Shown: piece by piece, positions 3,276 through 18,463 of the stretch
Position numbering within the stretch: position 1 is the first letter of the stretch
How the letters are laid out: each line of letters starts with the position of its first letter
Virus record (IMG/VR): IMGVR_UViG_3300047557_003115
Coordinates: 1 to 20,801 of that record
Strand: one strand, 5' to 3'
DNA from: a virus
Length of the DNA stretch: 20,801 nt
Notes under the pieces: generated by a model
What the model was told of the DNA's origin: nothing
Database searches by the model: none
What the model saw: the letters and a program-made list of their open reading frames with translations, nothing else
Position numbers and translations under genes: made by a program

Positions 3276-4145
3276 TCACTTTTTATTCTTTGCGTTCAGC
3301 TTCATGTTTGCGTTTTTTCCACTCCTGCCATATTCCTGGGCCGCTTGGCTGCGGAATTCCTGCTCCAGTTTTGTCCTGTGCCGCTTGATGTTCTCCAATT
3401 GCTCAGCATACGGGTAGCAGTTTCGGAACTGGTCCAGGGCGTACAGCACGACAGAGCAACGGTAGCCGCCGGCCTGCGTGGCAATGGGGGTGACGCCGTG
3501 CATCACTTTCTGCCCGTCAAATATGATTATGGCCCCATCAACCTGGGTCAATGCCGCCCTGTACTCCGGCAGCACCAGCAGGCCGCCCTTGCTGTTTTTG
3601 CGCAGGATAATCACGTTCGACCAAACGCCCTTCTGGTTGGCCGCGTCTCGGTGGTGCTTAATGGCGTGGTTCACGTTGAAATTGATGGTGGTGAACGGTG
3701 TACCCGGCACCACCCAGTCCGGCACGATTTCGCTGTTGGTTTGCCGGGTGTGCCTCTCGTATTCCTCAGGCAGCCATTTTTCGTAAAGGGTGCAAATATG
3801 GCCGGCGAACTCTTTCGCCAGCTCCCAGATTTCCGGGTGTTCATTGGTGTCGGCGCTCAGCCGGCAGTAGTTATGCCGCAGTGGCACTCGAGGAAGGCTG
3901 CCCAGAATGGTGGACTTGGTGGGCAGGCCCTGTGTGCGGGTGTTCTTTTTCGGTTTCACCTGGCGGGTTATTTGGTGGCCCTTTTCAGCCAGCCACGCCG
4001 GCAGTGACGCGTACACGCCAACACAGCGGCCCTGTGAAACCAGCCTGGCCGGCGGGTTGATTATTCTTTCAAATTCAGCAGCAGCCGGCACGTTACCCAG
4101 CAGGTGGTCACACGGTATAGGTGGCCCAAGGTCAATTGTCTTCAT
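3276..4145 (-). CDS. TET/JBP-type 2OG-Fe(II) dioxygenase, probable DNA base hydroxylase
   Basis: A 289-residue protein whose C-terminal half carries the signature of 2-oxoglutarate/Fe(II) dioxygenases of the TET/JBP group, which oxidise the methyl group of thymine or 5-methylcytosine in DNA. Visible residues: the HxD iron ligands H165-R166-D167 (in NHAIKHHRDAAN), the strand motif GGLLVLPEY at 187-195, the distal iron ligand H216 (in VMHGVTP) and R229 (in GGYRCSVVLY), which would bind 2-oxoglutarate. The HRDA and GG-x4-PEY pattern is what points to TET/JBP rather than a generic dioxygenase. The start at 4145 has a GAGG site and overlaps the ParB-like gene by 14 bases. Base composition is visibly less GC-rich than flanking genes. 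No DNA methyltransferase or glycosyltransferase is visible in the window, so the substrate base is unknown. Confidence 0.82.
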   Translation of the reverse strand: MKTIDLGPPIPCDHLLGNVPAAAEFERIINPPARLVSQGRCVGVYASLPAWLAEKGHQITRQVKPKKNTRTQGLPTKSTILGSLPRVPLRHNYCRLSADTNEHPEIWELAKEFAGHICTLYEKWLPEEYERHTRQTNSEIVPDWVVPGTPFTTINFNVNHAIKHHRDAANQKGVWSNVIILRKNSKGGLLVLPEYRAALTQVDGAIIIFDGQKVMHGVTPIATQAGGYRCSVVLYALDQFRNCYPYAEQLENIKRHRTKLEQEFRSQAAQEYGRSGKNANMKLNAKNKK

Positions 4146-6150: not shown

Positions 6151-6415
6151 CGCGTTCCCCTCCTAGAAACTCGAAACGGATCGGCAGGGGCAGCTGGACG
6201 AACCGGCTGAAGTAACCCGACTGCCGCTTCCTGTCCTCATCCATCCAGTGCCGCAGCACCAGTTCACCTTCCGGGTTGGTCATCAGCTGGAGGGCCTGCC
6301 CTGTGGCGATGTTCACCCATTGCAGCCGGTGCCATTCCCGGCCCTGGCCATCCAGCACCCGCACGCTGGTGCGGCCCTCGCCGTCGGGTGGCACATCCTC
6401 CGGCGTGACGATCAT
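6095..6415 (-). CDS. Hypothetical phage protein, probable beta-rich fold
   Basis: A 106-residue protein starting at ATG 6415, which overlaps the previous stop as ATGA. A longer in-frame reading from 6487 would run back through the upstream gene and is not favoured. The sequence alternates hydrophobic strands (RTSVRVLDGQG, RLQWVNIATGQALQLM) and ends in a Pro-rich tail. No family recognised. Its last 56 bases overlap the following coiled-coil gene. Confidence 0.6.
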   Translation of the reverse strand: MIVTPEDVPPDGEGRTSVRVLDGQGREWHRLQWVNIATGQALQLMTNPEGELVLRHWMDEDRKRQSGYFSRFVQLPLPIRFEFLGGERDGAEWKPYPEGPGAPAER

Positions 6416-6939
6416 ACACCGGCCCCCGCCATGGCTGAAGGTTTCCGGCCCTGGGGGCCGTGCAGGCGCTCCTTCGGCACGCACCACAGCCCGGGCCGGC
6501 CGTTGCCCAGCTCGGTCCAGAACTCCGGCTGTTTTGCATCACTGCCCAAGTACCACCCGTGCAGGGTCATGCGCGGGGCAAACCCGGATACCAGCACGTA
6601 CATGCGCTCCGGGCTGTCATCATGCCGTATTTTCAGGTCATAGCGCATTTGGCTGATCCACCGCACCTCGATGCCTGGCGGGTGTTGCCGGCATGGAATA
6701 TCCGGCTCAGCCCTGAAGGTGCCCACGCTGCCGGGCCAGAACAGGGCCAGCGCCTTGGCCACAGCCAGCTCAGCCGCTGCCCCGTTCAGGTGCATCGTCC
6801 AGGGGTCCAGGTTGCTTAGGCCGTGCTTGGTGCCAGGGCTGCCGGCTGACTGCAGCTGGCGCTCCGCCCCCACCATGGCGGCCATCCGCATTTCCATGTC
6901 CGTCAGGTTCACGGTTGTCCACGTTGTCAGCTCACTCAC
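6412..6939 (-). CDS. PD-(D/E)XK-like phage protein, putative nuclease
   Basis: A 175-residue protein of a type common in phage replication regions. The pattern fits a PD-(D/E)XK nuclease core: E57 in a helix (NGAAAELAVAKAL), P79-D80 ending a strand, and E91-V-R93 where E-x-K is usual, followed by a hydrophobic strand (MYVLVSGF) and the motif GWYLGSDAK. The third catalytic residue is R rather than K, so activity is uncertain. The GTG start at 6939 overlaps the upstream stop by 8 bases. The stop overlaps the next start as ATGA. Family membership is inferred by eye. Confidence 0.5.
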   Translation of the reverse strand: MSELTTWTTVNLTDMEMRMAAMVGAERQLQSAGSPGTKHGLSNLDPWTMHLNGAAAELAVAKALALFWPGSVGTFRAEPDIPCRQHPPGIEVRWISQMRYDLKIRHDDSPERMYVLVSGFAPRMTLHGWYLGSDAKQPEFWTELGNGRPGLWCVPKERLHGPQGRKPSAMAGAGV

Positions 6940-7117
6940 CGGCTGCCCCCTTTGCCATGCGCAGGATGGTTACCTCGTTCCGCAGCACCTCCGCCTCACT
7001 GCGCAGGCGGTCCACATCCAGCCGCAGCTGGTGGCACGTGAAAGACCACTGCGTCACGGCCTGCAACAGGCGCTCGTTTTCATATTCCAGCTTTTCCAGC
7101 TCAGTGGGCCTTCTCAT
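6932..7117 (-). CDS. Small coiled-coil phage protein
   Basis: A 61-residue protein that is one long heptad-like helix (LEKLEYENERLLQAV, then LRSEAEVLRNEVTILRM). The ATG at 7117 shares its A with the upstream stop (TGATG) and is preceded by GGGAGGGGAG, which belongs to the 19-base repeat described separately. Similar in size and nature to the protein at 7920-8087; the two may once have been adjacent. Function unknown. Confidence 0.65.
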   Translation of the reverse strand: MRRPTELEKLEYENERLLQAVTQWSFTCHQLRLDVDRLRSEAEVLRNEVTILRMAKGAAGE

Positions 7118-7138
7118 CACTCCCCTCCCGGCAGCGGG
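7117..7138. repeat. Direct repeat copy A (22 bases; 19-base core)
   Basis: Read on the minus strand, the core is GCTGCCGGGAGGGGAGTGA. It encodes LPGGE-stop and at the same time provides the ribosome site for the gene at 6932-7117. It shares 22 bases with copy C (7920-7941), and 23 bases with copy B when extended to 7113. Confidence 0.9.
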
Positions 7139-7461
7139 TTACTAATTTTTTGGTTTAGGTATTGAACCCTAATGTCTTTGTTACTGAACACAAAAACCGC
7201 AGTAGTAAACAGAAAAAATGCAACAACAGCGAACAAGCACCAAGCCGCAAACTTCAGCCAGAACATCAATGACTTTTTCCAGCCTTCGATTGCGGTAACA
7301 CGCTTTCGCACCTCGTGCAATTCGTGATACCTGCGCTCGGCATCGCCGTAATAGTAATCCAAACGGCCTTTGCTTTCCGCAAGTTGAAACTGAACTTTCT
7401 TCCAGTCGTCAGCAGAGATACTCAAAGAATCACTAATCTGGACACGCTTCTCTTCACTCAT
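7117..7461 (-). CDS. Single-pass membrane protein with coiled-coil N-terminus, cassette gene
   Basis: A 114-residue protein. Residues 1-60 are charged and helical (SKGRLDYYYGDAERRYHELH, then VRKRVTAIEGW). Residues about 66-93 form a strong transmembrane helix (WLKFAAWCLFAVVAFFLFT). The last residues read NPLPGGE and come from the repeat at its end. The ATG at 7461 sits right after the same repeat, which supplies GGGAGGGGAG. The gene is distinctly less GC-rich than its surroundings, which suggests acquisition. Function unknown; a membrane role such as exclusion or lysis control is possible but not shown. Confidence 0.7.
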   Translation of the reverse strand: MSEEKRVQISDSLSISADDWKKVQFQLAESKGRLDYYYGDAERRYHELHEVRKRVTAIEGWKKSLMFWLKFAAWCLFAVVAFFLFTTAVFVFSNKDIRVQYLNQKISNPLPGGE

Positions 7462-7479
7462 CACTCCCCTCCCGGCAGC
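7457..7479. repeat. Direct repeat copy B (23 bases; 19-base core)
   Basis: Same 19-base core at 7461-7479, with 23 bases identical to copy A (7113-7135). It supplies the ribosome site and start codon for the gene at 7117-7461. On the upstream side an LPGGE-stop frame is visible but has no good start codon. It looks like the remnant of a gene end inside the 7462-7557 spacer. Confidence 0.9.
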
Positions 7480-7557: not shown

Positions 7558-7854
7558 TTAGCCACCAACTCTGCCGTTGTACCAAGCAGTCACAATCGAC
7601 ATCGCCGCTTGAATTGCAGCCTCAGCAACAGCGTCTGGCACATCGTAAAACTTGATGTTTTTGCCATTTTCGCCAGAAATCGCACCAACTTGCAGGGATG
7701 CCTTGTTGTCCTTGAACGAAAGGTACTTCAAGTACCCGTACCTGCTGCTGTCGCCGTTTGGCTCAGCAGCTAGTACAGGCATCCTCTGGTGGCTGTCGGA
7801 ATAAGCACAGCACGAACTAGTCCAGAAACCCGGAACACTTTTCTCTTCAGACAT
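7558..7854 (-). CDS. Hypothetical cassette protein
   Basis: A 98-residue protein starting at ATG 7854 with GGAGG upstream. It has no recognised family. It starts with MSEEKSVPGF, echoing the MSEEKRVQ start of the next gene. A Cys pair is present (SSCCAYSD) and beta-like stretches follow (YLKYLSFKDNKASLQVGAI), ending in a helix (AVAEAAIQAAMSIVTAW). The gene is less GC-rich than the phage average and lies between repeat copies B and C, so it looks like an inserted cassette. Confidence 0.6.
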   Translation of the reverse strand: MSEEKSVPGFWTSSCCAYSDSHQRMPVLAAEPNGDSSRYGYLKYLSFKDNKASLQVGAISGENGKNIKFYDVPDAVAEAAIQAAMSIVTAWYNGRVGG

Positions 7855-7919
7855 GATTAAACCTCCAAACATTCCATCTCTCTGGAGTCACACCACAGAA
7901 CGGCAGGTGTCGCCGTTGC

Positions 7920-10444: not shown

Positions 10445-10501
10445 CATCCATCTCCTCAGGTGTGAGCGCCCATATTCCTCTAGGCTAGGCCGTTGTGCAA
10501 G

Positions 10502-11381: not shown

Positions 11382-11867
11382 TCAGAATGGCAGCTGCTCA
11401 TCCGGCATCTGCAGGCCCTGCTGTTTCGGCATGGGCGGGGCTGCGGCGGCCCGGGATTTAATCCGCAGGTTATGGTAAACGCGGCCTGCCCTCTCGTAGC
11501 TGGATTTCGTGGCCAGCATGACCACGCCGGGCAGCTGGTTCACGGCCAGCGGCAGGGCCTGGCTGAAGGGCATGCCGGCAGGCGTGCCCCACGTATGCGT
11601 CGGGAAACCCAGCAGGGCCAGGTCTGCGCCCAGCATGTTGCAGGCCCGCACGTCGCGTAGCCAGGTTGTGTTCTCGATAACCTGCCCGGTACTGGTGCGG
11701 TACTGCCAGCGGACCACATCCACCTCGTTCCCGTCACGCTGCGTGACCACGTCCAGGCTGCAGGTGGTAACCGTCAGGGTGTAGTCACCATCCGCCAGGC
11801 TTTCCAGCCCGGCAGCCCGGCCCGTGTTGGCCACGTTGAAATCTTGGTCAAATTGCGAAAGCGCCAT
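11382..11867 (-). CDS. SSB-like single-strand DNA-binding protein
   Basis: A 161-residue protein with a beta-rich body (DGDYTLTVTTCSLDVVTQRDG, then RVYHNLRIKS) and a Pro/Gln-rich linker ending in MPDEQLPF. That acidic tip with terminal Pro-Phe is the hallmark tail by which SSB proteins recruit partners. Related phage proteins of this size (DUF669-like) serve as single-strand binding proteins next to Sak4-type ATPases. The ATG at 11867 has AGGAG 7 bases upstream. Placement beside Gp157 and the RecA-fold ATPase supports a recombination role. The fold assignment is by context and tail rather than by clear OB motifs. Confidence 0.68.
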   Translation of the reverse strand: MALSQFDQDFNVANTGRAAGLESLADGDYTLTVTTCSLDVVTQRDGNEVDVVRWQYRTSTGQVIENTTWLRDVRACNMLGADLALLGFPTHTWGTPAGMPFSQALPLAVNQLPGVVMLATKSSYERAGRVYHNLRIKSRAAAAPPMPKQQGLQMPDEQLPF

Positions 11868-11881
11868 CAGAAACTCCTTTT

Positions 11882-12391
11882 CTACTTGATCACGATGATG
11901 GTAGAACGGTCGGCCAGCTGGGCGAAGGGCAGTGTCTTGCCGCTTTCCAGGGCGGCACGTATGGCGGCCCTGTCCGGTGATTTCACTACGGCCATGAACT
12001 CGTCGGGAATGCTGAACTCATCCACCACCATGGGTTGGACCCCGCCGGCCTTCTGCAAGCGCACCTTATAGCGGGTGGTTTCCACCTTCTGGCGGTTCAG
12101 CCGCACCAGCACATCCCGCAGGACGGTTTTCATCCGGTTGGCTTTGTTCCTGGCCTCCTGCTCGAGGCCCGCCAGGCGTTGGGCCTCAGCCTTGCGGGCA
12201 TCCGCCAGGGCGGTCAGCTGGGCCATTAGCCCGCAGTAGCCCTCGACCTTCTGCTCGAAAGCGCCTTCGGATTCCTCGAGCCACCGAGCCAGCTGGTCGT
12301 TGATTTCCCCGTTTTCGTCCACGCTGGTTTCTTCGGCCAGCAGGGCCTCCAGGGCGGCCAGATCGCCCTCCAGTTGGAAAATGTTGCGCAT
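11882..12391 (-). CDS. Siphovirus Gp157-family protein
   Basis: A 169-residue protein with the Gp157 layout: an N-terminal segment ending in KVEGYCGLMAQL, a long coiled coil (ADARKAEAQRLAGLEQEARN), a second helix with LRDVLVRLNRQKVETTRYKV, and a C-terminal IPDEFM motif with a short KTLPF stretch. The family is common beside phage recombination genes and has been linked to phage resistance in streptococci; its biochemical role is unclear. The start overlaps the ATPase stop as TAATG. A 14-base gap separates it from the SSB-like gene. Confidence 0.85.
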   Translation of the reverse strand: MRNIFQLEGDLAALEALLAEETSVDENGEINDQLARWLEESEGAFEQKVEGYCGLMAQLTALADARKAEAQRLAGLEQEARNKANRMKTVLRDVLVRLNRQKVETTRYKVRLQKAGGVQPMVVDEFSIPDEFMAVVKSPDRAAIRAALESGKTLPFAQLADRSTIIVIK

Positions 12392-13341
12392 TAGTTGTGC
12401 CCCCCGATTTCCTTGATGGTGCGGATGATGTTGCCCACCTGGCCGCTGGTCAGGTCCCGGCTGTTGCTGATGTGGTACATTTCCCCGATCAATTGTTTCA
12501 GGCCCTGCGGGGCGAACCCCAGGCCCTCCGCGACGGCAAACATGTACTTCAGCTCATCAGGCTGAGCCGGCTTGTCATCCACCGGGTGGCTGGGGCTTTC
12601 CACTGCCACCGGCAACGCACCGGCGGTAGTCGAGGCAAGGTTGACTTGTGGGTGTGCCCCAGCCAACCAGGTGGCCAATTTCCGCCCGGTTTCCTCAGTG
12701 ATCCGCTGGGGATCACCGCCGAACATGCCGGAACGGTCCTTGCTGGCGGTTGCGTAGTGGCCGTCGTGCACCAAGTCCAAAACTGTGGTGAACTCGTACT
12801 CCGCCCCTTCTCTCTGTTCGCTTTTCATGCCCAGCTTTTTCACGGCCTTGCGCCCGTTTTCCTCCACCTGGGCGGTTTCCGTTTTGCTGCGCATGGTGGC
12901 GATGATGTGGCACTTGCTGGCCAGAATGGTATCCACGAACGCCCGGTGGCGTGGCGTGGTTTCATTCCAGGCGCTCCAGGTGTTGCCCCTGTACTTGGTT
13001 TTTGCGATCTCATCATTCAGCTCGAGGCAGCCGCCGGCACCGTTCCACTCGTGGCTGATGCTGTCGATGATCACCACGTCGTACCCTGCCGCCTCAGCCG
13101 ATTTAATGGCCTCGATGAAGCGCTCCGGCCGGTAGGGTGGCTGAAGGTTCAACACATCAAACTCCGCCAGGGTGTCGTACAGGGTGGAGCTGTTCTGCTC
13201 GGTGTCGATCACCGCCACCCGGCCCCCCAGGCCCTTGGATATCAGCAGGGCCCCATAGGTTTTCCCGCTGCCGCTGGGGCCCGCAATGGCCAGGCGCAGC
13301 TTGGCCTGGGATCGTTTCGCACGCTGAAATGTCATAGTCAT
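12391..13341 (-). CDS. RecA-fold AAA ATPase, Sak4-like recombinase
   Basis: A 316-residue protein with Walker A at residues 21-28 (GPSGSGKT), a conserved VIDTEQN at 44-50, Walker B ending at D93 (YDVVIIDSISHEW) and a sensor-like strand HIIATMRSKTE. This layout matches the phage AAA_24 family, which includes the Sak4 single-strand annealing proteins that work with a phage SSB. Here Gp157 and an SSB-like protein follow directly. The C-terminal 70 residues form a separate helical region (LKYMFAVAEGLGFAPQGLKQ). The ATG at 13341 overlaps the CsrA-like stop as ATGA, with AAGGAG upstream. Confidence 0.85.
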   Translation of the reverse strand: MTMTFQRAKRSQAKLRLAIAGPSGSGKTYGALLISKGLGGRVAVIDTEQNSSTLYDTLAEFDVLNLQPPYRPERFIEAIKSAEAAGYDVVIIDSISHEWNGAGGCLELNDEIAKTKYRGNTWSAWNETTPRHRAFVDTILASKCHIIATMRSKTETAQVEENGRKAVKKLGMKSEQREGAEYEFTTVLDLVHDGHYATASKDRSGMFGGDPQRITEETGRKLATWLAGAHPQVNLASTTAGALPVAVESPSHPVDDKPAQPDELKYMFAVAEGLGFAPQGLKQLIGEMYHISNSRDLTSGQVGNIIRTIKEIGGHN

Positions 13342-13553
13342 TTGCCGTTCTCCTTCTCCTCATCCTGCCGGCGGAGCACCTCACCCCGCCAGATTTGCAC
13401 GCCCGAATCCGCTATGATCCGCAGCTGTGCCCGGCCGCCACCGGCGGCCTCGACCACGATCAGGACCTCATAGTTCCCGGCCCTGATCACGATTTCCTCG
13501 CCGACCCGGCGGAACAGTACCAGTCCACCCCAGTCCGGCGCAAGCCTAGTCAT
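13338..13553 (-). CDS. csrA: CsrA-like RNA-binding regulator
   Basis: A 71-residue protein whose body fits CsrA strand by strand. Residues 11-23 read LVLFRRVGEEIVI, against the LILTRKVGE-x-IxI start of CsrA. A strand pair follows (YEVLIVVE, then AQLRIIA), and residues 52-59 read VQIWRGEV, matching VxVHREEI. R15 and R56 correspond to the two RNA-contacting arginines (R6 and R44 in E. coli numbering). CsrA dimers bind GGA motifs in mRNA leaders, especially SD regions. There is a 10-residue N-terminal extension and a charged tail. GGAGGTGA precedes the ATG at 13553. A phage copy could act on host or phage messages. Confidence 0.78.
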   Translation of the reverse strand: MTRLAPDWGGLVLFRRVGEEIVIRAGNYEVLIVVEAAGGGRAQLRIIADSGVQIWRGEVLRRQDEEKENGK

Positions 13554-13554
13554 G

Positions 13555-13890
13555 TCACCTCCAGCTCTGGACGGTAACCGCGCACGGCCCGTCCGTGTAT
13601 GTAACCGATACCTGCGTGCGCACGGCCTGCCCGCAGCCCGCCAGGGCCATGGCCAGAAGGGCCACCAGGCCTAACCGCTTGCGCATGATGTTCTGAAGGT
13701 CCGCGTACACGCCAGCCATCCACCGCAGCTTTCCGACGTGGTCCAGGTGGCTTGCCCACCTGGGCGGCTGCCAGCTTGCGCCGGCCTCCGCCACCCGTGC
13801 CAGGTGCGTCAGCTGTTGCAGCCTGCTTTCCACCTGTTCCAGGCTGGCCCGGCCCATGCGTTCCAGCTCCTCATTCGTGATGCTCGTCAT
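13555..13890 (-). CDS. ORF with helical N-terminus and in-frame lipoprotein-like C-terminus
   Basis: A 111-residue frame from ATG 13890 (GAGGAG upstream, ATGA overlap with the 28-residue gene). Residues 1-68 are a helical, soluble-looking domain (NEELERMGRASLEQVESRLQ). Residues 69-111 start with a Met and read as a complete lipoprotein: a basic start MRKR, a hydrophobic core and the lipobox LAGC with Cys86, then a 25-residue mature part (TQVSVTYTDGPCAVTVQSW). If translated as one chain it would be a membrane-anchored fusion. If an internal start at 13686 is used it gives a separate 43-residue lipoprotein, but that start has no clear ribosome site. Function unknown. Confidence 0.7.
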   Translation of the reverse strand: MTSITNEELERMGRASLEQVESRLQQLTHLARVAEAGASWQPPRWASHLDHVGKLRWMAGVYADLQNIMRKRLGLVALLAMALAGCGQAVRTQVSVTYTDGPCAVTVQSWR

Positions 13891-15796: not shown

Positions 15797-16246
15797 TCAT
15801 GTTGATGGAGGGCGTGAAACCGCTATCAGCCACTGGTGGTAGGTGGCCCCCAGCCGGTCCACATCCCGCCAGGATTTCATCCAGGAGCGGGTGCCGCTGC
15901 GGCATGGCCCCTCGCTTGGGCACTGGTAGTGCACGGTTCCAGAAACTATTCCGCCGACTGTGACGTAGTGCCCGATGTTGGCCCGGGTGACCAAACAGAT
16001 GGCTGGCCTGGTGGTGGTGATGTGGTGCAGGTCGGCCAGAGTGAACGATCCGCTGGCCACCCATAGCCCCAGGCTGCGCAGCAGGCTCTCCATGGAACGG
16101 GGGTCGGTGCCGTCTATGGGGCTGGTGCCCAGCAGGGTTTCCAGATCGGCAGGGGGGCGCTTTTTGATGGCCCGCAGGGCGATACGGACGGCCACAGCGC
16201 CGCAGTCATGCTCCCGGGTTTGCCGCAGGTCCGGCAGGGGTATCAT
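15797..16246 (-). CDS. C39-like cysteine peptidase domain protein
   Basis: A 149-residue protein. The N-terminus reads LPDLRQTREHDCGAVAV, the C39 signature with oxyanion Q9 and nucleophile C15; H93 in GHYVTVGGI is the catalytic His. Where C39 enzymes usually have a DP motif, this protein has C109-P110 (HYQCPSEGP), so the third catalytic residue appears changed. C39 domains cleave leader peptides or other proteins. ATG 16246 is chosen because AGGAGG lies 7 bases upstream; an in-frame ATG at 16336 would run through the HNH gene. It overlaps the HNH gene by 41 bases. A role in lysis or envelope attack is inferred from its late position. Confidence 0.78.
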   Translation of the reverse strand: MIPLPDLRQTREHDCGAVAVRIALRAIKKRPPADLETLLGTSPIDGTDPRSMESLLRSLGLWVASGSFTLADLHHITTTRPAICLVTRANIGHYVTVGGIVSGTVHYQCPSEGPCRSGTRSWMKSWRDVDRLGATYHQWLIAVSRPPST

Positions 16247-16571
16247 GCGGCGGCCTCCTGCGTCGTTTTTCCATGTACTTTTCCGCGTCTGCCCGCACGT
16301 CGGTGTTCCAGCTGGCCCAGTCCCCAAGGTGCCCAAAAACGAAATGACAGGTCCGGCACAGGCTTATCAGGTTGCTTTCCACCAGCTCCAGCTGCCGGTC
16401 CTCTTGAAAGGGCACCACGTGGTGGGCCTCCAGGCTTTCGGTGCGCCCGCAGGCCGCACAATAGGGGTTGTGCCGGATGAATTTGTCCCGCAGGGCAGGC
16501 CAGCGCCCGCTGCGCTGGCTCTTGCCCCACCAATGGGCCGTAGCCCCCAGCAGTTCCCCCAGCCAGCTCAC
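16206..16571 (-). CDS. HNH endonuclease
   Basis: A 121-residue protein with a complete HNH core: zinc ligands C38-x2-C41, the catalytic pair H50-H51 (LEAHHVVPF), N67 (ESNLISLC), C72-x2-C75-H76 and H81. Phage HNH nucleases often help terminase cut DNA or act as free homing-type endonucleases; here it lies in the late region away from the terminase on this map. The GTG start at 16571 overlaps the upstream stop as GTGA, with no clear ribosome site, which suggests translational coupling. Confidence 0.9.
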   Translation of the reverse strand: MSWLGELLGATAHWWGKSQRSGRWPALRDKFIRHNPYCAACGRTESLEAHHVVPFQEDRQLELVESNLISLCRTCHFVFGHLGDWASWNTDVRADAEKYMEKRRRRPPHDTPAGPAANPGA

Positions 16572-16884: not shown

Positions 16885-17790
16885 TCAAATGAACCAGGAA
16901 AACCGGCGTGCGGGAAATCCGCTCACCCCAGAATATGCCCAGCTGTCGCCCATGCCCAGCATTTTGCCCAGCACGTCAGCCTCAGCGTAGAATCCGCCCA
17001 CAGGGGGCTCACCCGGACCCAGCGGCCCGGTATGGGCCTGCGGGCCCCAGGAATTCATCACAAACCCGCATTCCTTGCCCTTGATGGTGGCGTAGCCAAT
17101 GATGGCCATTTGGTGCGCCCATTTGCCAGATGGAGGGCACACCCCGTTGGCGTCCCGCTGGTACCGAAAGCCCTGCGTGCTGGCCACGCTAACGGCGTAG
17201 CCCTGCGCCAGGGCCTGCTTGCAACTCTCCCAGGTTTTCACCAGCGTGACGGCTGCCACCGGGTATTTGCGGATGGCCGGCTCCAAGTCATCCGGCACGC
17301 CCTTGCCGGGTGCGCCCCACGCCCTGCACCGGGTTTCGCTGTACTGGCTCAGGTCATAGGTGCCATGCAAGCCGCGATCCAGCACCCCGTACCGCCGCAC
17401 GTATTCAGCCGCCCAGGCCCCAATGCTTCCATCGGAGGAAAACCGCCCATTGCCGATTTCCACGCGGCTGCCGGCGTAAACCACCTCCTGCACCAGGTCC
17501 CGGGATTCCTCAGCCTCGCCAGCCAGAATCTCACAGCAGGCCGTCACCTCGATGGCCGTACAGCACCCGAAGCTGACACAGCTGCCCACCTTGCCCTGCG
17601 AGCGGTTGGGGAATGGCACGGCCCGCACCTTCTCCCAGCTTTTCCACAGGAAAACCTCCGCTGGAAGGCTTTCCATGGGCACGCTGCCGGCAGGGGTCAG
17701 CCCCCAGAATGGCGTGGGTTGCTCCATGGCCACCAGCTCGACGGCTGACTGGTCATCCACCCAACCGGGCGTGTAGAAATCCTCAGCCAT
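16885..17790 (-). CDS. Papain-family (C1A) cysteine peptidase
   Basis: A 301-residue protein with the papain triad in order: oxyanion Q65 and nucleophile C71 in QGKVGSCVSFG, H226 in WAHQMAIIGY and N246 in FVMNSWGP. Spacing and the NSWG motif match C1A peptidases. There is no signal peptide, and the 60 residues before the catalytic Gln are too short for a standard inhibitory pro-domain. Its late position suggests a structural or lysis-related protease, for example one acting on envelope proteins at entry or exit. ATG 17790 has GGAGGG upstream and overlaps the previous stop by 8 bases; an upstream in-frame ATG at 17817 has no such site. Confidence 0.88.
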   Translation of the reverse strand: MAEDFYTPGWVDDQSAVELVAMEQPTPFWGLTPAGSVPMESLPAEVFLWKSWEKVRAVPFPNRSQGKVGSCVSFGCCTAIEVTACCEILAGEAEESRDLVQEVVYAGSRVEIGNGRFSSDGSIGAWAAEYVRRYGVLDRGLHGTYDLSQYSETRCRAWGAPGKGVPDDLEPAIRKYPVAAVTLVKTWESCKQALAQGYAVSVASTQGFRYQRDANGVCPPSGKWAHQMAIIGYATIKGKECGFVMNSWGPQAHTGPLGPGEPPVGGFYAEADVLGKMLGMGDSWAYSGVSGFPARRFSWFI

Positions 17791-18463
17791 TGCCCAGGCC
17801 CTCCAGCGCGGCGGCACAGCGTGAAAACTGCGCCTTTATCTTGCCCCGCAGCTCCGGCGTCAGCACGGTGTCCGCCTGCGTGGGCAGCTGGCCATCCAGC
17901 TCCTGATTCAGCCGGTCACGCACCGCCCGCAAGTCGCCATCGGCCAACACCTGCCGGCTCAGCTGGCGTACCAGCAGGTACAGCTCCCCTGTGGTGCGCA
18001 CCCGGGTATCGTCCACCATGGGCTCAGCCCTGCGGTATACCCCAGCCAGGGCCCGGCGCTTTTCATCCCTGCCGGGCTCCACATTGCCGCCGTAGATGGC
18101 CGCAATGGCTTCAGCCAGGGGGTCAGCCGGTTGTGGTGGCACCACAGGGTTGACCGGCTTGGGTGGGGCCGCACCGCCCACCACCACCGTGACAATGGAG
18201 GGCGCGCTGGGCACGCCTTCCAGGGCCGTGTAGGCCAGCACGCGGTACCGCCCGGGCTGCACCGCATTGGCCACCGTTGCCGTCTTGTCTGCCAGCAGGT
18301 CAGACGGGAAAAGGTTCAGGCCCAAGTCCAACGCCACAAACCGCACCACCTTGCCGTTGGTTTCCGGCTTGATGGTGATGAATTCCCCAGGCTGCCCGGT
18401 AATTTCCTGCGGCAGCTTCACAGCCGGGTCCACGCCCAGCACCAGAAGCAGAAAAATCATCAT
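17783..18463 (-). CDS. Secreted late protein with beta-sandwich-like domain
   Basis: A 226-residue protein. It starts with a short hydrophobic segment (MMIFLLLVLGVDP) that resembles a signal peptide but lacks basic residues. Residues about 17-95 form a beta-rich, Ig-like domain ending in GRYRVLAYTALEGVPSAPS, a pattern I associate with planctomycete exported proteins. A Pro-rich linker (PPKPVNPVVPPQP) leads to a helical C-terminal half (ELYLLVRQLSRQVLADGDL). The ATG overlaps the phosphoesterase stop as ATGA. Possibly an envelope or virion-associated protein; function unknown. Confidence 0.7.
   Translation of the reverse strand: MMIFLLLVLGVDPAVKLPQEITGQPGEFITIKPETNGKVVRFVALDLGLNLFPSDLLADKTATVANAVQPGRYRVLAYTALEGVPSAPSIVTVVVGGAAPPKPVNPVVPPQPADPLAEAIAAIYGGNVEPGRDEKRRALAGVYRRAEPMVDDTRVRTTGELYLLVRQLSRQVLADGDLRAVRDRLNQELDGQLPTQADTVLTPELRGKIKAQFSRCAAALEGLGNG

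Follow-up and report, generated by a model that had tools for sequence, protein, structure and literature searches.

CsrA in bacteria binds messenger RNA and controls translation. A small gene with CsrA-like features lies ahead of replication genes in the phage DNA studied here, and the question it raises is whether it encodes a member of the CsrA family and, if so, whether the product acts on messages of the phage or on those of the host. The window, meaning the whole stretch of DNA that was analysed, is the entire IMG/VR record of 20,801 bases; the record is classed as linear and is therefore probably a fragment. All genes discussed lie on its minus strand. Related and comparison contigs carry L numbers. 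The features needed for the argument are as follows.

13555 to 13686, minus strand: small lipoprotein-like gene of about 43 amino acids with lipobox LAGC, aligned with the same-place genes of L003 and L005
13557 to 13562, minus strand: GGAGGT Shine-Dalgarno sequence of the CsrA-like gene, 3 nt before its ATG and overlapping the end of the upstream gene (from the sequence)
13338 to 13553, minus strand: CsrA-like gene, 71 amino acids (Pfam PF02599, 31.6 bits; E. coli CsrA alignment; nine relatives)
13342 to 13386, minus strand: last part of the CsrA-like gene, up to the ATPase start; contains three GGA triplets and is a candidate autogenous-control site
12391 to 13341, minus strand: AAA_24 RecA-fold ATPase (PF13479, E 3.9e-27; phrog_1366, E 2e-94; weak Sak4-like match)
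11882 to 12391, minus strand: Siphovirus Gp157 family gene (PF05565, E 6e-34)
11382 to 11867, minus strand: DUF669-like gene, possibly SSB-like, about 40% identical to L005 7123-7605, which matches PF05037
8330 to 10609, minus strand: primase-helicase with ATPase domain AAA_25 (PF13481, E 3.5e-19)
CsrA-like protein, residues 1-9: N-terminal extension
CsrA-like protein, L13, R15, R16, I54, R56 and E58: RNA-contact positions, equivalent to E. coli L4, R6, R7, V42, R44 and E46

A divergent member of the CsrA family

The open reading frame runs from an ATG at 13553 to a TGA ending at 13338 (translation MTRLAPDWGGLVLFRRVGEEIVIRAGNYEVLIVVEAAGGGRAQLRIIADSGVQIWRGEVLRRQDEEKENGK), and its extent is as the original prediction had it; its Shine-Dalgarno sequence is a good one. 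Its ATG begins one base past the stop of the preceding gene, and its TGA shares the four bases ATGA (13341..13338) with the ATG of the ATPase gene, so that the proposed overlap between the two is real. This is not a chance reading frame, because it occupies the same place in nine other phages and because pairwise dN/dS among close copies is 0.03-0.15 (Nei-Gojobori). The gene is under strong purifying selection.

A profile search placed the protein in the CsrA family, as had been proposed. The match to PF02599 (E 1.6e-7, model positions 2-50 of 53) exceeds the gathering score of 27, a six-frame search of the record with the same Pfam model gave 5.5e-9, and PHROG 9500, “CsrA-like regulator”, was matched at E 1.7e-5. 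On a contig that carries terminase genes, the protein also falls within the phage homologues as defined in PMC8450108 (PF02599 E below 1e-4, at least 50% of the model, viral contig; this covers the first model of a scheme that also has a second model and a completeness filter). Equivalog models of NCBIfam gave a different picture, with 23.2 bits against a cut-off of 73 for NF002469 and 21.8 against 70.1 for TIGR00202, and comparison of the single sequence with the PDB reached only E 0.02; for these reasons we regard the protein as a divergent member. A profile built from phage relatives reached E. coli CsrA at 1.7e-13, helped by the canonical phage CsrA sequences that it includes.

Structure prediction pointed the same way. 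An AlphaFold2 model of the monomer (pLDDT 75, pTM 0.54) has three confident central strands, at residues 20-25, 28-38 and 41-48, whereas strands 1 and 5, which in CsrA pair between the two chains of the dimer, have no assignment in it. The best Foldseek matches of this model, 14 of 14, are CsrA/RsmA/RsmE chains, with modest scores (E 0.08 and above), and VIA-align scored 2bti and 1vpz at Z 5.3 and the highest unrelated row at 3.6. Of the CsrA strand pattern described earlier, the monomer model directly shows the central strands; for all five strands the support comes from alignment and fold match. Taken together, sequence profiles and fold matches identify the protein as a member of the CsrA family, not a CsrA equivalog, and we have very little doubt of the membership.

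Residues at RNA-contact positions

Alignment with E. coli CsrA equates L13, F14, R15 and R16 with L4, T5, R6 and R7, and residues I54, W55, R56, G57 and E58 with V42, H43, R44, E45 and E46. The two arginines singled out in the original prediction as RNA-contacting, R15 and R56, accordingly sit at the R6 and R44 positions. R56 is invariant in all 11 aligned phage sequences and R15 is kept in 10 of them; L13, R15, G18, E19 and E58 are nearly invariant across these 11 proteins. L4 and R44 of CsrA are particularly critical for RNA binding (PMC7652899), and both, together with R6, are present in the alignment as L13, R56 and R15. The kept positions support retained RNA binding, and binding to GGA is likely to have been preserved as well.

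Positions T5, H43 and E45 of CsrA are, on the other hand, replaced, which would fit a fold repurposed for another task, for example single-stranded DNA binding or a structural role in a replication or recombination complex. The gene sits among annealing, DUF669-like and primase genes, and in vitro the plasmid-borne homologue RsmQ also binds GGA when it is presented in hairpins of single-stranded DNA (PMC9928087). However, the two positions most important for RNA recognition are among those kept, and no computed result ties the protein to DNA, so we consider such a role improbable. About as doubtful is a product that works through the host protein, forming mixed dimers with host CsrA or occupying CsrA-titrating RNAs or FliW, and so altering host CsrA activity without regulating messages directly. 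CsrA does work as a dimer in which both chains contribute residues to each RNA site (PMC7652899), and the phage protein is divergent; but a pure protein-partner decoy would need no RNA-contact positions, and their retention makes it the less apt.

A small phage group with a constant gene and changing neighbours

Used as a query against IMG/VR, the CsrA-like protein recovered one contig, L002, and the primase-helicase, used as an anchor, recovered eleven. Of these 12 related records, the window included, 11 have a CsrA-like gene in the replication block; the twelfth, L004, starts inside the primase-helicase and is thus cut ahead of the CsrA-like position. Nine phages (L002, L003, L005-L010 and L013) have proteins 46-56% identical to that of the window and form a subfamily with it, marked by 8-9 residues ahead of strand 1 that include an invariant Gly-Gly. 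L011 and L012 carry a more divergent CsrA-like protein with weak family scores, at another position within the same block. An alignment-based rescan of IMG/VR returned the same nine contigs and no others; as far as these searches reach, the subfamily therefore occurs in this phage group only. When 50,697 phage records were searched by tblastn with the protein, no match appeared. A single query also collected 36 IMG/VR contigs with canonical CsrA (L191-L226), most of them without other similarity to genes of the window.

The order of transcription in the window is lipoprotein-like gene, CsrA-like gene, AAA_24 ATPase, Gp157, DUF669-like gene, two small genes and primase-helicase, and the main genes of L003 are ordered in the same way. 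L005-L010 have one gene without a family match in place of the ATPase and Gp157, the DUF669-like gene follows the CsrA-like gene directly in L002, and in L012 a RecT-like gene lies upstream. Throughout the subfamily the CsrA-like gene stands at the same place, with recombination, DUF669-like and primase-helicase genes after it, and whichever gene follows, its start overlaps the CsrA-like end in the window, L002, L003, L005 and L012. The pairing with the ATPase is therefore genuine in the window but not general, being limited within the subfamily to the window and L003. Since the ATPase and Gp157 are replaced or missing in other relatives, what stays constant is the CsrA-like gene and not the ATPase. 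The DUF669-like gene, which had no direct Pfam match in the window, is kept next to the CsrA-like gene in all relatives.

Proximity of CsrA genes to recombination genes recurs elsewhere. In six IMG/VR contigs (L014, L015, L028, L030, L085 and L194) a gene of the window's ATPase family is preceded, at about 200-230 nt, by a canonical CsrA gene, and in the P. aeruginosa phages phi297 and PP9W nuclease and RecT genes have a CsrA gene 0.8-2.1 kb upstream of them; these are examples, not counts set against chance.

Some details of the block deserve separate mention. The L005 gene that replaces ATPase and Gp157 (6380-7126) matched no Pfam family and a PHROG only weakly (E 0.027); judged by its position, it may encode an annealing protein whose family is not listed. 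Homology of the primase-helicase to its relatives begins near residue 53, and its true start may lie near 10447. The lipoprotein-like gene, listed in the window as a longer open reading frame (13555-13890), directly precedes the CsrA-like gene in the window, in L003 (7567-7782) and in the L005 group (L005 5933-6193), each time with a lipobox AGC followed by a short Gly-Pro region; the two genes may form a two-gene unit.

GGA sites across the genome and in the operon

The original prediction held that nearly every gene of this phage has a GGAGG-type site and drew from this a translation programme for phage messages. With genes called by a simple script, whose start sites consequently carry errors, GGAGG was found in 36% and GGA in 72% of window leaders within 20 nt before the start, and the frequency of such sites exceeds neither that in loci without CsrA nor the expected one. 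Three tests across genomes showed no enrichment. GGA occurred in leaders (-30..+5) at 84% in seven CsrA-bearing phages versus 78% in 40 loci without detected CsrA, the two groups being unmatched for composition. Hairpins with an ANGGA loop were found at 5/197 start sites (2.5%), as against 38/896 (4.2%) in loci without CsrA. By a CSRA_TARGET-like criterion adapted from PMC4066749, 26.4% of all genes qualified and 25.1% were expected from shuffled upstream sequence. The inference of a phage-wide programme from GGAGG sites accordingly fails.

Leaders within the operon gave a different signal. An excess of GGA sites was seen in 12/29 operon leaders versus 20/117 elsewhere (p 0.007, a post hoc comparison with one phage per group), and operon leaders averaged 3.21 sites where 2.16 were expected (also post hoc). 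Loci without CsrA have a weaker excess of the same kind around the ATPase (29/180 versus 63/623, p 0.02), and 2/8 operon leaders qualify in the window itself. We treat the operon excess as a lead and not a result, because several tests were tried, the phages are few and the leaders overlap one another. At the junction of the CsrA-like gene with the next gene, at least three GGA triplets are present in 8/9 phages, several of them close relatives.

Two further kinds of site were considered. In L006, L007 and L009 the start site is spanned by a hairpin, AACC-AUGGA-GGUU, which is absent from the window; it was set aside because the same stretch is also upstream coding sequence and Shine-Dalgarno. 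No Rfam match to a Csr-type decoy RNA was found in the window, a probable fragment, among the named Rfam families.

Other features of the record

Over much of the sequence that they have in common, L004 and the window are almost the same (several proteins at 99%), and an apparent insertion or deletion separates the two sequences, in that the minus-strand window genes 7117-7464 and 7558-7872 have no match in L004 (region 2018-2511). A gene with a Tet/JBP-type oxygenase domain, a domain family that includes base-modifying enzymes, lies at window 3276-4145 on the minus strand (PF12851, E 3.3e-14) and was found among the compared relatives only in L004. Two peptidase genes, papain-like (C1) at 16885-17817 and C39-like at 15797-16336, both on the minus strand, are also present; the C1 gene occurs in L002, L003, L007, L009 and L010. 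No tRNA was found in the window, and a plasmid search with a protease gene gave no match. In a GTDB scan (L102-L181), most of the best matches to the N-terminal part of the primase-helicase came from Methanomicrobiales archaea, at 37-50% identity across some 200 residues; the best phage match of the terminase was a Methanomicrobiales virus record (45%). A planctomycete host is not claimed.

Whose messages?

We interpret the product, on sequence grounds, as a phage CsrA-family RNA-binding protein. By analogy with its family it would form a strand-swapped dimer that binds GGA-containing sites and blocks or alters ribosome access. Its main job, at low confidence, would be early feedback on the phage's own replication operon, whose translation it would adjust like a valve, acting on the CsrA-like gene itself, the gene after it, the DUF669-like protein and the primase-helicase, with host messages as possible side targets. 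We give control of the own replication operon a probability of a little under one half (roughly 0.45). Counted in its favour are the PF02599 match, the CsrA/Rsm fold matches, the kept arginines, the low dN/dS, the fixed block, the overlaps and the operon GGA excess; distance from bacterial CsrA equivalogs makes a simple copy of host CsrA slightly less likely. Counted against it are the null genome-wide GGA tests, the post hoc nature of the operon excess with its few phages and overlapping leaders, and the behaviour of RsmQ, the one tested mobile-element homologue, which acts mainly on host proteins (PMC9928087).

That behaviour, together with the missing genome-wide enrichment, would fit a regulator made early and directed at the host, binding host messages and CsrA-titrating RNAs and shifting metabolism, motility or defence-gene translation in the phage's favour. 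Phage CsrA genes correlate with CsrA-bearing hosts, and RsmA represses cas genes (PMC8450108); host manipulation, including CRISPR-Cas repression, was proposed by Campa et al., who found many phage homologues in a GenBank and IMG/VR search that started from PF02599 (PMC8450108). Those homologues, however, were described as highly similar to bacterial CsrA, whereas the protein studied here is divergent, and its gene is core to the phage group and not patchy. Host control is a possible reading held more tentatively, and control of the own operon is favoured over it only slightly.

Phage and plasmid CsrA proteins are already known (PMC7366521, PMC8450108, PMC9928087). Sobrero and Valverde counted 30 csrA-bearing phages among 2517 (PMC7366521), and plasmid RsmQ, likewise a CsrA homologue carried by a mobile element, has been shown experimentally to bind GGA motifs (PMC9928087); unlike the gene described here it is plasmid-borne, close to host Rsm proteins and experimentally tested. 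The window protein resembles CsrA/RsmA/RsmE (PF02599) in profile, fold and the L4, R6, R44 and E46 positions, but differs in its extension, in a longer strand 2-3 region, in scores far below the equivalog cut-offs and in the VHRE motif, which reads IWRGE in the window and x-R-x-E in relatives. RsmM of P. aeruginosa phages (lists in PMC7366521 and PMC8450108) is also a phage CsrA, but it is close to bacterial Rsm and extended at the C terminus, where the window subfamily is extended at the N terminus; phi297 and PP9W share with the window a CsrA gene in a block ahead of nuclease and annealing genes. The six canonical genes upstream of the AAA_24 ATPase family belong to different phages, and their products start at strand 1 without an extension and score higher against the family (56-65 bits for L014, L015 and L028).

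What appears to be new is a divergent, N-terminally extended CsrA subfamily that is core to the replication block of one small phage group. That this phage-specific subfamily, with its own extension and altered motif, is a fixed autogenous regulator of the viral replication and recombination operon, staying in place as the recombination gene beside it changes, is a somewhat unlikely extension of the preferred reading. Phage CsrA genes have been catalogued, and their role in infection is, in the cited literature, a proposal and not the outcome of a test. A core, divergent copy under strong purifying selection, in translational overlap with replication genes, is a good case for deciding between a phage's own messages and those of its host.
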